Origin: Acidihalobacter ferrooxydans
GTDB taxonomy: Bacteria > Pseudomonadota > Gammaproteobacteria > DSM-5130 > Acidihalobacteraceae
DNA: 64,000 nucleotides
Reading direction: 5' to 3'
Assembly (NCBI RefSeq): GCF_001975725.1
Contig: NZ_CP019434.1
Location: 1,757,486 to 1,821,485 of the forward strand
Below are positions 25,459-63,133 of this stretch, piece after piece (position 1 is the stretch's first letter; the number at the start of each line of letters is the position of its first letter). The translations under genes were made by a program, and so were the position numbers. The notes under the pieces are model-generated. The model searched no databases and was not told where the DNA came from. It saw only the letters and a program-made list of their open reading frames with translations.

Positions 25459-25555
25459 AAAGTGCGGCGAATAGATACCGCCGCGATACCGCTTGGCTCG
25501 TCGGCCGAACAGCGCCTTCATGGACTCCTGCCAACTCATTCGGAAGGAGACCAAG

Positions 25556-57034: not shown

Positions 57035-57571
57035 TCAGTCCACGCGCGGGCGCAGATCGCCCAATTCCTGCAAGTGCTCGCGCACTGCGGCCTCCAGTGC
57101 CACGTGCATGGCGTGCGGATCGACATCGAGCCTGGCAGCCATCTGCGCCGAAATGCGCGCGGGCCAGTTGAGCCAGGCATCGCGCTCAGAGCGCGCCAGC
57201 TTGAACACATGCGCAATGGCCTGTGGCCGATCGACCAGCTCTCCTTTTAGGCGGGCCAGTCGCACCTTGTTGGTTTGCGCCTTGACCACTTCGTTGACCG
57301 TGCGTGCCTGCAGCAACGACGTGCCACCAGTAGGCAAGGCAGCAGGCCCGTCGCTCGACGGTGTGCCGGTCTCCTGCACGACCACTTTGGCCGCCTTGGT
57401 ACGGGTGCCTGCCTTGGGCACATCCGAGTTGCGCGCCCACTCGCGATCCGCCCGGTCGGCATCGATGGTTCCGTCAGGTTCCGGCGTGATGCGCCCGGCG
57501 CGAATCGCCTTGTGAACAGCGGTGTCGGTCACGCCTCGGTGCCGGGCGTATGCGCGTATCGAAATGCCCAT
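57035..57571 (-). CDS. phage terminase small subunit, Nu1-like
   Basis: A 178-residue protein: MGISIRAYARHRGVTDTAVH, then IRAGRITPEPDGTIDADRAD, the helix-turn-helix that recognises the packaging site in Nu1-type proteins. The C-terminal half (ARLKGELVDRPQAIAHVFKL) contacts the large subunit. TTG 57595 is an alternative start. Ends 10 nt before the large subunit. Confidence 0.82.
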   Translation of the reverse strand: MGISIRAYARHRGVTDTAVHKAIRAGRITPEPDGTIDADRADREWARNSDVPKAGTRTKAAKVVVQETGTPSSDGPAALPTGGTSLLQARTVNEVVKAQTNKVRLARLKGELVDRPQAIAHVFKLARSERDAWLNWPARISAQMAARLDVDPHAMHVALEAAVREHLQELGDLRPRVD

Positions 57572-57623
57572 GGTGAGAACCGGCGGCTCCTTCAATCATT
57601 TGATGGTTATTCCTCTGGATTGA

Positions 57624-57651
57624 GCTTGGCTTCCATCTGGAACAGCGCGTT
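57624..57651 (+). repeat. prophage leader element, copy 1
   Basis: GCTTGGCTTC, six variable bases, GAACAGCGCGTT. It ends 38 nt before the DUF6900 gene start. Confidence 0.75.
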
Positions 57652-57689
57652 CATGGCATCACCATCAACGACGCCGTCAGGAGACGCAC

Positions 57690-57878
57690 ATGACCAAGCA
57701 AACCGACAAATCCCTGGAAAACCTGCTGCAGCAAATCGCGCTGGATCACCTGTTCATCGACAACCTGGAGACCCGCAACAGCGATCGCCTGGACTTCCAC
57801 GAGGTCAGCGTCTGGGGCGTCAAGAGCGCCCTGATCGCCGCTTACGAGGCGGGCCGGCAAGCCGCCAAACAGGACTGA
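57690..57878 (+). CDS. DUF6900 small protein
   Basis: A 62-residue acidic protein: MTKQTDKSLENLLQQIALDH, then RNSDRLDFHEVSVWGVKSAL. It fits DUF6900, a family seen on plasmids, ICEs and phages next to DUF3489 genes. It has GGAG before ATG 57690, runs opposite to the packaging genes and lies behind leader copy 1. Function unknown. Confidence 0.75.
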   Translation: MTKQTDKSLENLLQQIALDHLFIDNLETRNSDRLDFHEVSVWGVKSALIAAYEAGRQAAKQD

Positions 57879-57894
57879 GAAAGAAGCAGAAGAC

Positions 57895-57922
57895 GCTTGG
57901 CTTCACTCGCGAACAGCGCGTT
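57895..57922 (+). repeat. prophage leader element, copy 2
   Basis: GCTTGGCTTC, six bases, GAACAGCGCGTT; ends 39 nt before the DUF3489 gene start. The bases after it also resemble copy 1 (both begin CAT, and both genes are preceded by GCAC). Confidence 0.75.
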
Positions 57923-57961
57923 CATCAGCTCACGCCATCAACCACTCCAAAGGAGCAGCAC

Positions 57962-58495
57962 ATGAACACCACCCAACTGACCCCGGCCCAGCACGCGATC
58001 CTGGCCTACGCCCTCGAACACACCGGCGGCAAGATCGACTGGTTCCCCGACAACATCAAAGGCGGTGCACGCAAGAAGGTGTTGGACGGACTTTTCAATC
58101 GTGCCTTGATCACTACCGACGGCTCCGACTGGTTTGTCGCTGCCGAGGGCTACGATGCGATGGGTCGCGCCCGTCCCGCCCTCGAACCCACCGCCACGCC
58201 CCTGGATGCCGATCCCGAAATTGAGGCCGCCGTGACCGCAGCCGAGGCCGCGTGGGCCAAGGACGCGAGCACTGAGCAGGCCAAGCCGCGCACCCGCGAG
58301 AACAGCAAGCAGGCGGAAGTCATCCGGATGCTGCAACGCCCCGAGGGCGCCACGATTGCCCAGATCTGCATGGCCACCGGGTGGCAGGCGCATACGGTGC
58401 GCGGCACCTTTGCCGGGGCCTTCAAGAAGAAGCTCGGCCTGACCATCGTCTCGGACAAGGCTCCGGGCGGCGAGCGGGTCTACCGGATCGCCTGA
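57962..58495 (+). CDS. DUF3489 protein
   Basis: A 177-residue protein: MNTTQLTPAQHAILAYALEH, a central acidic linker, then a winged-helix-like C-terminus (KQAEVIRMLQRPEGATIAQI, GWQAHTVRGTFAGAFKKKLG) that defines DUF3489. The domain probably binds DNA. AAAGGAG precedes ATG 57962. It is the middle gene of three in tandem, each with its own leader element. The much longer open frame upstream is rejected. Confidence 0.8.
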   Translation: MNTTQLTPAQHAILAYALEHTGGKIDWFPDNIKGGARKKVLDGLFNRALITTDGSDWFVAAEGYDAMGRARPALEPTATPLDADPEIEAAVTAAEAAWAKDASTEQAKPRTRENSKQAEVIRMLQRPEGATIAQICMATGWQAHTVRGTFAGAFKKKLGLTIVSDKAPGGERVYRIA

Positions 58496-58526
58496 TCAGA
58501 AAGATCGAGAAAGAGGCCAAGCCCCG

Positions 58527-58554
58527 CTTGGCTTCTCAATCGAACAGCGCGTTA
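58527..58554 (+). repeat. prophage leader element, copy 3
   Basis: GCTTGGCTTC, six bases, GAACAGCGCGTT; ends 39 nt before the next start. GAGGCCAAGC just upstream can pair with GCTTGGCTTC, forming a hairpin in this copy. Confidence 0.75.
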
Positions 58555-58593
58555 CTACAGGTGTCGCAACGATCAGATCCCAAGGAGCCAGCG

Positions 58594-58962
58594 ATGAACG
58601 CCACCAACCAAATCCCTGCCACCCAGAACGAAGAATGGGGCTTCTGGGGCACGATGAACGAGCACGCCAGCGCCGGATGGCCCCTGGCGATGGCCGCCAT
58701 CTCGGACGCCACCCACCAGCCCCTCGAATCGGTTCAGTCCTTCCTCGACAGCCGCCACGGTCGCCACTTTGCCGACGACGTCCAAAACGGGCTTTACGAA
58801 GGCATGGCCCTGGCAGAATCGATCAACGCCGCCACGGGGCGCTGGATGGACTGGACGATTGGGCGCCAGACCAGCAAGCAATACGGCATCCCGCGCGGCA
58901 TGCCATACCTGACGGGCTTTGTGATTCACTGCGAGATCGTCGAGGAATCGCTGGTCGCCTGA
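58594..58962 (+). CDS. conserved hypothetical protein, third leader-linked gene
   Basis: A 122-residue protein: MNATNQIPATQNEEWGFWGT, AAISDATHQPLESVQSFLDS, RHGRHFADDVQNGLYEGMAL. I do not recognise a characterised family; similar proteins often travel with DUF3489. AAGGAG precedes ATG 58594. The end overlaps the convergent methyltransferase gene by 37 bases. Confidence 0.7.
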   Translation: MNATNQIPATQNEEWGFWGTMNEHASAGWPLAMAAISDATHQPLESVQSFLDSRHGRHFADDVQNGLYEGMALAESINAATGRWMDWTIGRQTSKQYGIPRGMPYLTGFVIHCEIVEESLVA

Positions 58963-60188
58963 TCGAATACTGCGCCATCCGCCTCGCGGGTGGCCTGCTT
59001 GCCGGTGAAGTCCTCCCACCGGCGCACGATCACATCCACGTACTTCGGATCGAGTTCGATCAGCCGCGCGACGCGCCCCGACTTTTCGGCCGCAATCAAC
59101 GTTGTGCCAGAACCACCGAACGGATCGAGCACCAGGTTACCCGGGCGGCTCGAATTGCGGATGGCTCGCTCGACCAGCTCCACCGGCTTCATCGTCGGAT
59201 GCAGATCGTTCTTCTGCGGCTTCTTGATAGCCCACACATCGCCCTGATCGCGGTCACCACACCAGTGGCGTTGCGCACCCTCGGGCCATCCGTACAGGAT
59301 CGGTTCGTACTGGCGCTGGTAGTCGGCACGGCCAAGCGTGAAGGTGTTCTTGGCCCAGATGATGAACGTCGACCACTTGCCACCGGCGGCACGAAAGGCG
59401 GCTTGCAGCACATCCAGCTCGCTGGATGACATCGCCACGTAGATGCCGCCCCGGCAATTCGCCACGGTCGGCGTCAGCGCTGCCAGCAAGAAGTCGTAGA
59501 AGCCATCGCCCAGGTTGTCGTTGAGGATCGCGCGATCCTTGCCGCGCATCTTGTCCTTGGCGCTGTTGGCGTAGTTCACGTTGTACGGCGGGTCGGTGAA
59601 GACCATGTCTGCCACGTCGCCTTGCATTAGCCGGGCATAGCTCTCTGCCACGGTCGAGTCGCCGCACAGCAGGCGGTGCTGGCCCATGATCCAGACATCG
59701 CCCGGGCGCGAGATCGGTGTCTCGCCAACCTCCGGTACCGCGTCCTCATCGGTCTGGCCCTCATTGTCCGGCTCGTCGCCCGCGATCAGTTCGGCCAGCG
59801 CGTCGGCGTCGAAGCCGGTGATGTCCAGATCGAAACCTTCGAGCTGCAAGGCTTCCAGTTCGATCCGCAGCATCGCATCGTCCCAGCCCGCGTTCTCGGC
59901 GATACGGTTGTCCGCGATGACCAAGGCACGGCGCTGGGTCGGGCTCAAATGGTCGAGTACGACCACCGGTACGATCTCCAGCCCGAGCTTTTGGGCAGCG
60001 GCCAGCCGACCGTGGCCCGCGACGATGATGCCGTCACTGCCTGCGAGGATCGGATTGGTGAAGCCAAACTCGGCAATCGATGCGGCGATCTGCGCCACCT
60101 GATCATCCGAGTGGGTTCGCGCATTGCGGGCATAGGGCAGCAGCTTGGCGGTCGGCCACTGCTCGATCTTGTCGGCCAGCCAGTTCAT
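58926..60188 (-). CDS. ParB-domain DNA methyltransferase, DPPY type
   Basis: A 420-residue fusion. The N-terminal ParB-like nuclease domain has LPYARNARTHSDDQVAQIAA and IIVAGHGRLAAAQKLG. The C-terminal adenine methylase has TDPPYNVNYAN (near residue 195) and VLDPFGGSGTT (near 365). DPPY indicates N6-adenine modification. Such orphan phage methylases can protect phage DNA from host restriction. Overlaps the second methyltransferase by four bases. Confidence 0.9.
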   Translation of the reverse strand: MNWLADKIEQWPTAKLLPYARNARTHSDDQVAQIAASIAEFGFTNPILAGSDGIIVAGHGRLAAAQKLGLEIVPVVVLDHLSPTQRRALVIADNRIAENAGWDDAMLRIELEALQLEGFDLDITGFDADALAELIAGDEPDNEGQTDEDAVPEVGETPISRPGDVWIMGQHRLLCGDSTVAESYARLMQGDVADMVFTDPPYNVNYANSAKDKMRGKDRAILNDNLGDGFYDFLLAALTPTVANCRGGIYVAMSSSELDVLQAAFRAAGGKWSTFIIWAKNTFTLGRADYQRQYEPILYGWPEGAQRHWCGDRDQGDVWAIKKPQKNDLHPTMKPVELVERAIRNSSRPGNLVLDPFGGSGTTLIAAEKSGRVARLIELDPKYVDVIVRRWEDFTGKQATREADGAVFDQATSDSSTISQ

Positions 60189-62008: not shown

Positions 62009-62329
62009 TCAGATGACGGCTTCCAGCCCTTTACGCTCGATCAGATTCAGCAGCTTCAGAGATGGGCCGCTGGGCTTCTTGTCGCCGACCTCCCACTTCT
62101 GCACCGTGGACAAGCTGGTATTCAGCACGGCAGCAAACACCGCTTGGCTCACATGAGCTTGCTCGCGCAGTGACTTGATCTTCTGCGGGGGCATCTCATG
62201 AACATCGAGATGACACAGCGCATCGAACTCGCCCATGCGCCGCTTGCTGATCAAGCCGGCGCCATGCAGCCCACGCGCAGTTTCGTGCATCTCATCCAGA
62301 ATTCGGCTCTTACGCTTTGTCGTTGCCAT
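62009..62329 (-). CDS. higA: HigA-like XRE antitoxin
   Basis: A 106-residue antitoxin: DEMHETARGLHGAGLISKRR, then the HTH KIKSLREQAHVSQAVFAAVL and NTSLSTVQKWEVGDKKPSGP. This is the HigA/NadS-type antitoxin that neutralises its toxin and represses the operon. ATG 62329 overlaps the toxin gene by 20 bases; toxin-first order is the HigBA pattern. Confidence 0.88.
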   Translation of the reverse strand: MATTKRKSRILDEMHETARGLHGAGLISKRRMGEFDALCHLDVHEMPPQKIKSLREQAHVSQAVFAAVLNTSLSTVQKWEVGDKKPSGPSLKLLNLIERKGLEAVI

Positions 62330-62696
62330 CACACACCTCCACAATCTCACCCGCCGACAGGGCGTTTGCCAGCTGTCGATCATCGAATCCGAGCAATTCC
62401 TTTGCCACCTCTTGGAACACCTTCAGTTCGTCTTTATCGATGTTGGCTCGCTCGTTCTTGCCGAACCCGTACAGAAAGAACCAGCGGTCAGCCATCTTGG
62501 TGGCCACTATGGTCCTGGCTCCACCATGCTTGCCCTGCCCGGGCAGGGCGACCCGCTTTTTCACCACATGACCGCCCAGGTCTGCATCGACGAGTCCTTG
62601 GGCCATCTCGGAAACGGCTTCGCACAGAGCATCGTCTGTCAAACCCGCTTTTCGCATCCAGCGGGTGAAGGTTCGGATCCGGAACACGCTTCTCAT
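62310..62696 (-). CDS. higB: HigB/RelE-like toxin
   Basis: A 128-residue toxin: MRSVFRIRTFTRWMRKAGLT, then KKRVALPGQGKHGGARTIVA and FFLYGFGKNERANIDKDELK. This is the RelE/HigB-related group that cuts mRNA at the ribosome. The core residues look intact. It is the first gene of the pair. In a prophage it can act in maintenance or superinfection control. Confidence 0.87.
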   Translation of the reverse strand: MRSVFRIRTFTRWMRKAGLTDDALCEAVSEMAQGLVDADLGGHVVKKRVALPGQGKHGGARTIVATKMADRWFFLYGFGKNERANIDKDELKVFQEVAKELLGFDDRQLANALSAGEIVEVCDGNDKA

Positions 62697-62723: not shown

Positions 62724-62749
62724 GTTTGCCAGTCATGGTTTGCCAGTCA
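62724..62749 (-). promoter_or_regulatory. higBA operator/promoter region
   Basis: GTTTGCCAGTCA is repeated directly at 62724-62735 and 62738-62749. The minus-strand -35-like TTGACT overlaps the outer copy; a -10 is weak (AACTAT). The repeats sit where HigA would autoregulate. Confidence 0.5.
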
Positions 62750-63133
62750 AGTTCCCCGACTGGGGCCGGTTAGCGAATCTGCCACCTGCTGGAGTGCCGC
62801 CTGCCAACGACGCCAGGCAGTGGTCCGGTCACAGGCAAAGCGGCAGCAGATGTCCTTCCACGGATATCGTTGTGCTCGCATCCAGACGAGGTGCCGCTGT
62901 TCTTCTTCCAGCCACTGAACCCACCGTATGGTCTCCAGCATCCGGTCGATGGCCGCGGGGTCGGGCGGAAAGCGGTAGACCGGTGGCTCTGCGCCGAGGT
63001 TTTCCCATGGCATGCGTTTGATCGCCGGCCAGCAGTTGAAGTAGCCCTGCACGCGAACCGGAGGAAGGCGGTGGGCGGTTCTTGCTGCCTCGATGAACCG
63101 GTCGGCCACGGTCTCGATCGTCCATTCAGCCAT
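62747..63133 (-). CDS. DUF6362 phage protein
   Basis: A 128-residue basic protein: TIETVADRFIEAARTAHRLP, CWPAIKRMPWENLGAEPP, then a C-terminal HTH-like part (YPWKDICCRFACDRTTAWRR). It fits DUF6362, common in replication/regulation regions of prophages. Probable DNA binder. Overlaps the neighbour by eight bases. Confidence 0.75.
   Translation of the reverse strand: MAEWTIETVADRFIEAARTAHRLPPVRVQGYFNCWPAIKRMPWENLGAEPPVYRFPPDPAAIDRMLETIRWVQWLEEEQRHLVWMRAQRYPWKDICCRFACDRTTAWRRWQAALQQVADSLTGPSRGT

Follow-up and report, generated by a model that had tools for sequence, protein, structure and literature searches.

According to the passages of three reports that bear on these systems (PMC7969949, PMC11150451, PMC7171158), an antiterminator-loading site lies between the -35 and -10 elements at lambda pR' (QBE), at Pseudomonas aeruginosa alpB and PA0807 (ABE), and at the Caulobacter GTA cluster (ZBE), all of them promoters of phage or phage-derived genes. 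The putative binding elements of AlpA and GafZ between -35 and -10 have been likened there to the Q element at pR'. The same passages describe the readers of these sites as a Q-type HTH, a predicted winged helix in AlpA, and a predicted sigma-factor-like HTH in GafZ. They also report that GafY aids the polymerase at the degenerate -35 elements of about 18 promoters. A different kind of repeated element is known from cluster K mycobacteriophages, in which the SAS, GGGATAGGAGCCC, is located at the ribosome-binding site, and about half of the SAS/ESAS are accompanied by an upstream inverted repeat (PMC3203893, in part). Prophage morons, for which criteria have been given (PMC5567305, in part), are accessory genes set against the late operon, and they can carry sigma-70 promoters of their own.

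In this study, we investigated an element repeated before three consecutive plus-strand genes of Acidihalobacter ferrooxydans. The stretch of chromosome analysed has 64,000 nucleotides and is called the window. Its features are as follows.

25491..25518, plus strand: degenerate element copy with 3 mismatches, from the pattern search, before a small HTH-like gene at 25552
57624..57651, plus strand: element copy 1 (G + CTTGGCTTC-N6-GAACAGCGCGTT), exact match, before the DUF6900 gene
57626..57631, plus strand: -35-like TTGGCT of copy 1, placed by analogy with 703 aligned copies
57649..57654, plus strand: -10-like GTTCAT of copy 1, 17 bp after TTGGCT and 3/6 of TATAAT
57661, plus strand: predicted transcription start of copy 1 (A after C), from the pyrimidine-purine (YR) step at alignment positions 35/36
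57690..57878, plus strand: gene 1, DUF6900 protein of 62 aa (PF21841, E 1.9e-26)
57895..57922, plus strand: element copy 2, exact match, before the DUF3489 gene
57932, plus strand: predicted transcription start of copy 2
57962..58495, plus strand: gene 2, DUF3489 protein of 177 aa, candidate regulator (PF11994, E 2.1e-32)
58516..58532, no strand assigned: GCCAAGC-ccc-GCTTGGC, an inverted repeat sharing bases with the -35 of copy 3; 1 such repeat in the region, where shuffles would give 1.6
58526..58553, plus strand: element copy 3, exact match, before the third gene, hexamer variant GTTACT
58563, plus strand: predicted transcription start of copy 3
58594..58962, plus strand: gene 3, 122 aa, function unknown (phrog_8020)
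62747..63133, minus strand: DUF6362 protein of 128 aa, candidate transcription factor for the element (sigma-region-4/Q21-like model)

The window was searched for the pattern GCTTGGCTTC-N6-GAACAGCGCGTT with up to 3 mismatches. Exact matches were found on the plus strand at 57624-57651, 57895-57922, and 58526-58553, and no match was found in 100 dinucleotide-preserving shuffles of the window. A sequence-only reading of this DNA had reported the element in exact form before three consecutive genes, and all three copies were recovered. It had given their distances to the start codons as 38, 39, and 39 nt; the first two values stand, and the third copy ends 40 nt 5' of its ATG (ATGs at 57690, 57962, and 58594). 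A fourth copy, with 3 mismatches at 25491-25518 (plus strand), was absent from that reading. Its naming of the genes as DUF6900, DUF3489, and unknown agreed with the Pfam search, which confirmed the first two and gave no match for the 122-aa product of gene 3. Across the whole chromosome, the same search gave 5 matches with up to 3 mismatches, compared to 1 for a reversed-pattern control. These were the four window copies and one outside the window (C1:1834461), 5' of a DUF2924 gene.

The three genes form a plus-strand island between minus-strand terminase genes and two minus-strand methyltransferase-like genes. We judged that the island sits in a prophage spanning about 35,000-79,500 in window numbering, because of genes common to AcaML1 and another genome. 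The gene following the degenerate copy (25552) lies outside this main prophage, and its product and the AcaML1 regulator gp9 share 49% identity. The DUF2924 gene beyond the window is followed by homologues of AcaML1 site-specific recombinase genes, and the copy before it lies inside the 3' end of a 72-aa ORF on the same chromosome, just past the window (L416:12826-13044). Elsewhere in the window, two small overlapping minus-strand genes at 62009-62696 looked by eye like a RelE-type toxin and an HTH antitoxin. The stretch 12000-34000 is mostly of lower GC (0.55-0.62), and its ORFs looked by eye like a restriction-modification and mobile-gene island.

If the element is read as a promoter, it is similar to the Q, AlpA, and GafZ promoters in that a conserved, rigidly placed CAGCGC block lies between -35 and -10. 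The model of the DUF6362 protein also aligns with Q21. Unlike those promoters, the element has a different sequence and occurs in 1 to 10 copies per record (14 records), mostly before single small genes. The layout is like that of antiterminator-loading promoters. By analogy with the AlpA and GafZ promoters, the conservation of the spacer points to binding by a phage factor. With the SAS/ESAS as described in part of PMC3203893, the element has in common that it is short, asymmetric, and repeated at a set position ahead of the starts of numerous unrelated genes. However, its place is some 40 nt 5' of the ATG, it has no Shine-Dalgarno sequence, and its sequence and hosts are unrelated, so that it falls outside the SAS/ESAS in both sequence and position. 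The -35/17 bp/-10 geometry and the YR start are those of the sigma-70 promoters of prophage morons, and the island genes, like morons, are accessory genes set against the late operon. In contrast to sigma-70 moron promoters, the common forms of the element have 4/6 of the -35 consensus and 3/6 of the -10 consensus, and about 15 further bases beyond the sigma-70 consensus are conserved.

Pattern scans found the element in at least 120 stretches of viral contigs and at least 117 stretches of bacterial genomes. The fetched loci, from hundreds of related prophage-like sequences, held at least 703 unique copies with at most 1 core mismatch; identical sequences were counted once, and copies too near a locus end were excluded. 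At least 675 genes lying 3' of the element were grouped into 35 mutually unrelated protein clusters, with the reservation that some are single short ORFs that may be spurious. The largest were those of the third gene (164), DUF3489 (162), and DUF6900 (121). Among the matches listed, 80 loci for each scan, element-bearing records came from Burkholderiales, Rhodocyclales, Lysobacterales, Pseudomonas indica, Thiomonas, and Halotalea, and further listed matches were in the complete chromosome of Nitrospira defluvii and in metagenome bins labelled Gallionella, Geobacter, and Elioraea; the copies were read directly in five of the named records. In an even draw of genomes from the host phylum, 4 of 398 had an exact 17-base match, including the host's own, and the reversed-pattern control gave 0 throughout. 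AcaML1 carries 4 distinct copies, one of which appeared twice due to overlapping fetched stretches and was counted once.

For many of these loci the query was the element itself, which inflates its apparent conservation. Loci picked by protein were used as the check. We examined 80 third-gene loci, from which 17 duplicates and 1 short locus were removed, and 80 DUF6900 loci, from which 26 duplicates were removed. For 60/62 unique third-gene relatives, the 160 nt upstream contained the 17-base core with no more than 2 mismatches, and 43/54 unique DUF6900 relatives had it in the same range when up to 3 mismatches were allowed. The remaining relatives (2/62 and 11/54) had at least 5 core mismatches. 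In 5-6 kb plasmid stretches with DUF3489 relatives from Roseicitreum, Shinella, Paracoccus, Endozoicomonas, and Bradyrhizobium, no match with 4 or fewer mismatches out of 17 was found, and 5-mismatch matches were present in all five. In 16 kb of a Thauera plasmid with a relative of gene 3, the element was not found at up to 3 mismatches. The sequence-only reading had proposed that the element is conserved in its own right, and its presence before about 35 unrelated clusters and upstream of most protein-picked homologues supports this. It had also named absence of the element upstream of homologues elsewhere as grounds against its reading; the element was present for 60/62 and 43/54 relatives and missing for 2/62, for 11/54, and, at up to 4 mismatches in the stretches read, for the DUF3489 relatives examined on Alphaproteobacteria plasmids. 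Its absence before some homologues and plasmid relatives suggests that the element is tied to one phage group, not to the protein families at large. A plasmid of Eleftheria had the same island layout with DUF3489 and diverged versions of the element. The Roseicitreum plasmid also had this layout with DUF3489, and a different leader repeat (78 nt, 79% identical; L534:1285-1362 and 2136-2213) leads into two of its six island genes. The leaders in these two records are a hint that would fit a co-divergence of element and reader.

We then aligned the copies, of which there were at least 703 after removal of identical sequences. CTTGGCTT and CAGCGCG were almost invariant, the N6 stretch was variable, and GAA was conserved at 78-90%. 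The invariance of the core is partly by construction, because copies were collected with at most 1 core mismatch; the selection did not extend to the flanks or to bases 2-6 of the hexamer. The final hexamer was GTTCAT in 489 copies, GTTACT in 104, GTCAAT in 55, CTGAAT in 13, and GTGAAT in 10, with rarer forms in the rest. At the 17-bp spacing, its last base was T in about 99% of copies. When gaps of 7-13 nt were scanned with at most 1 mismatch, the two blocks were 10 nt apart in 660/661 copies and 9 nt apart in one, and exact copies scanned over gaps of 5-15 nt had 10 nt in 471/471. The distance from GTT to the ATG was flexible (36-39 nt in 501/673, range 28-73).

We consider the element likely to be a promoter that is specific to the phage and probably dependent on a factor. 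The promoter would consist of TTGGCT as the -35, a 17-bp spacer with the conserved GAACAGCGC, and a T-ending hexamer (GTTCAT, GTTACT, GTCAAT, or CTGAAT). Transcription would start 7 nt past the hexamer at a pyrimidine-purine step, and the ATG would follow a 5' leader of about 30 nt. With -7 assigned to the final T, which hardly varies, TTGGCT falls at -35 to -30. In this register, 91% of copies had a pyrimidine at -1 and a purine at +1; outside the conserved blocks, no other such step was as frequent. The YR step at positions 35/36 was present in more than half of the copies for 29 of the 35 clusters, and other nearby steps had cluster means of 0.20-0.37. The other six clusters did not have it in most copies (in one, it was present in half), and neighbouring YR steps were also high (38/39, 0.77; 29/30 and 27/28, 0.72). 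The depletion of T in the leader was modest, which likewise counts against the promoter. The spacing falls within 16-18 bp (17 bp by the placement of the hexamer), and the purine start falls about 7 nt past the -10. A phage-specific promoter was among the options of the sequence-only reading, and the promoter geometry and the YR step at the predicted start support it. Its remark that there is no obvious -10 box is right as to sequence, but a T-ending hexamer sits at the -10 spacing.

A scan for sigma-70 promoters at 9/12 found none in 57200-59000, and none of 131 first copies had a sigma-70 match within the element that reached 8/12; in both scans a site must have A as the second base of its -10, and the hexamer of the element has none there. 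By these scans, the element is no ordinary sigma-70 promoter. Duplex stability showed no dip at the predicted -10, and the less stable stretches were upstream and in the -35 and spacer. The weak -10 and the conservation of the spacer make it probable that host RNA polymerase relies on a phage protein that binds within this spacer. The promoter would be repeated before the genes of the small accessory island, which runs in the opposite direction to the terminase and methyltransferase genes on its two sides. Because the element also precedes DUF2924, beside site-specific recombinase genes, the genes for integration and those of the island could be activated jointly.

A site bound by a phage protein may also be an operator, through which a phage repressor or regulator (DUF3489 or an HTH_17-like protein) silences or tunes the genes while the contacts with polymerase are incidental. 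The two-part, rigidly spaced, asymmetric site is consistent with this, and so is the DUF3489 model with two winged helices. The relative of AcaML1 gp9, which is HTH_17-like below the Pfam cut-off, was present in 31/40 records, and copies of the element also precede HTH genes (cluster 24; window 25491). We consider an operator unlikely, however: by inspection the element is not palindromic, and its placement with respect to the start codon and its YR step fit a core promoter and would be unnecessary for an operator by itself. The operator and promoter readings are not exclusive. An inverted repeat upstream of the element was rejected as the operator. An upstream inverted arm (8/9 or better) was found at 154/446 internal copies and at 1/148 first copies, with two main offsets; common at internal copies and nearly absent at first copies, it is more likely to be the end of the preceding gene. 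The repeat at 58516-58532 is terminator-like on the minus strand only (GCCAAGC-GGG-GCTTGGC then CTCTTTCTC), and the intergenic inverted repeats were by inspection without a U tract on the sense strand. A boundary for recombination or cassettes, kept for shuffling the island genes, would agree with islands that differ in gene number and kind, and with one locus (L195, minus strand, about 2432) in which the element is fused to the apparent interior of the gene-3 homologue, as if by illegitimate recombination. This is very improbable, as the orientation and position before start codons are constant, with copies on both strands in only 5/488 loci, and the YR step is present.

The remaining explanations place the function in the transcript or in a peptide. 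An mRNA leader element, namely a protein-binding, riboregulatory, or small-RNA target site acting on the translation of all the genes, would account for the 306/315 unique copies that stand in sense orientation ahead of a start codon preceded by a Shine-Dalgarno sequence, and for the A/C-rich leader 3' of the element. The 150 nt upstream of 131 first copies contained 29 sigma-70-like sites of 8/12 (shuffled mean 16.6, maximum 25), 2 of 10/12 (shuffled 0.6, maximum 2), and, at 9/12 or better, 2 compared to a shuffled mean of 3.0. Strong sites thus did not exceed chance, which favours a promoter at the element, but the slight excess of weak sites leaves room for an upstream promoter and counts in favour of an mRNA leader. 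However, folding energy compared with shuffles for 120 sequences did not go beyond them (mean z +0.40 for the element, -0.25 for element and leader, -0.24 for the control); a stretch that included 30 nt upstream was more stable (mean z -0.94), presumably via the inverted arm. No Rfam family matched the window at gathering scores, the sole match being a chance-level miRNA on the other strand (E 2.7), and the TTC/GAA positions showed no covariation. An RNA element was rejected for the lack of an Rfam family, of TTC/GAA covariation, and of a conserved fold. The inner gap is also rigid and the distance to the start codon flexible, and on these grounds the mRNA structure, protein-binding leader, or small-RNA target that had been offered earlier fares worse than a promoter; we regard it as quite improbable. 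In a coding remnant, LGFxxEQRVH would be a conserved peptide or leader ORF. In its favour, each block has a length divisible by three, the copy preceding DUF2924 forms the 3' end of a genuine small ORF, and in distant DUF6900 relatives the upstream gene ends by eye in GFxxxxQ[IV]H or similar. The frame relative to the downstream gene also showed a modest excess of phase 0 (276/199/198), but no phase was fixed, the excess is explained by the 39-nt distance peak, and starts in the element's own frame came between those in frame 1, which were more numerous, and those in frame 2, which were fewer. In the ORF before DUF2924, the entropy at third codon positions was 0.17 bit in the element compared to 0.70 in codons 1-45 (63 unique sequences). 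The conserved blocks were unchanged, except for C/T at one base, in 50/59 unique relatives; 9/59 unique proteins failed the motif filter and were left out of this count but kept in the entropy. With its wobble positions frozen within an ORF, the element is a nucleotide signal. The frame statistics and the wobble freezing speak against a leader peptide, and a coding remnant is the least probable of all the explanations.

Returning to a factor-dependent promoter, we examined which phage proteins may bind the spacer. The candidates are DUF6362, with a Q21/sigma-4-like model, and DUF3489 (gene 2), with a tandem winged-helix model. Among the matches listed from the viral scan, 18 records were at least 34 kb long; DUF3489 was present in 18/18, DUF6362 in 18/18, DUF6900 in 12/18, and a terminase control in 18/18. 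As the terminase control is equally universal, co-occurrence singles out neither DUF3489 nor DUF6362. The DUF3489 model (mean pLDDT 79, pTM 0.39) had two winged-helix-like domains, with residues 2-72 closest to RuvB (best Z 9.8) and residues 112-177 closest to winged-helix regulators (best Z 8.4). Pfam HTH_23 weakly matched 69/70 DUF3489 relatives (best 3e-4). On a Bradyrhizobium plasmid, a DUF3489 gene lies directly 5' of a DUF2924 gene. The DUF6362 model (pLDDT 78, pTM 0.69) had a C-terminal half similar to sigma region 4, and it aligned along its length with phage 21 Q (Z 8.1, 112 residues, rmsd 4.8). Z values of about 8 are modest. Sigma70_r4_2 weakly matched 18/38 DUF6362 relatives (best 6e-4), and other HTH models matched more of them (HTH_Tnp_4, 34; HTH_23, 30). 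For both models, Foldseek alone yielded nothing at E 0.001 or better, sequence searches of the PDB gave nothing significant, and NCBIfam gave no match. DUF6362 is possibly the late regulator of this phage group. We tentatively suggest, as possible rather than probable, that these are private factor-loading promoters: one phage factor, DUF6362 or the island's own product DUF3489, would bind the spacers at several sites in each phage and so adjust the host polymerase for a distributed regulon of accessory genes and genes for integration. Element and reader would have diverged together.

The literature, accessible in part, was searched by sequence, protein families, phage name, and motif wording, and no published description of the element was found in it; the sole match to the element sequence was a paper on fungal chitinase secretion. 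A DUF3489 relative (E 1e-5) is encoded in only three of 50,697 phage records, and these are all AcaML1. Thus a phage group that is widespread, but of which hardly any member has a name, appears to have its accessory genes marked by a single, highly conserved control element. Should this element be a factor-dependent promoter, it would allow a regulon to be predicted from sequence and would offer a route to new small phage genes. DUF3489 and DUF6362, two families of unknown function, would then become testable as readers of the element.
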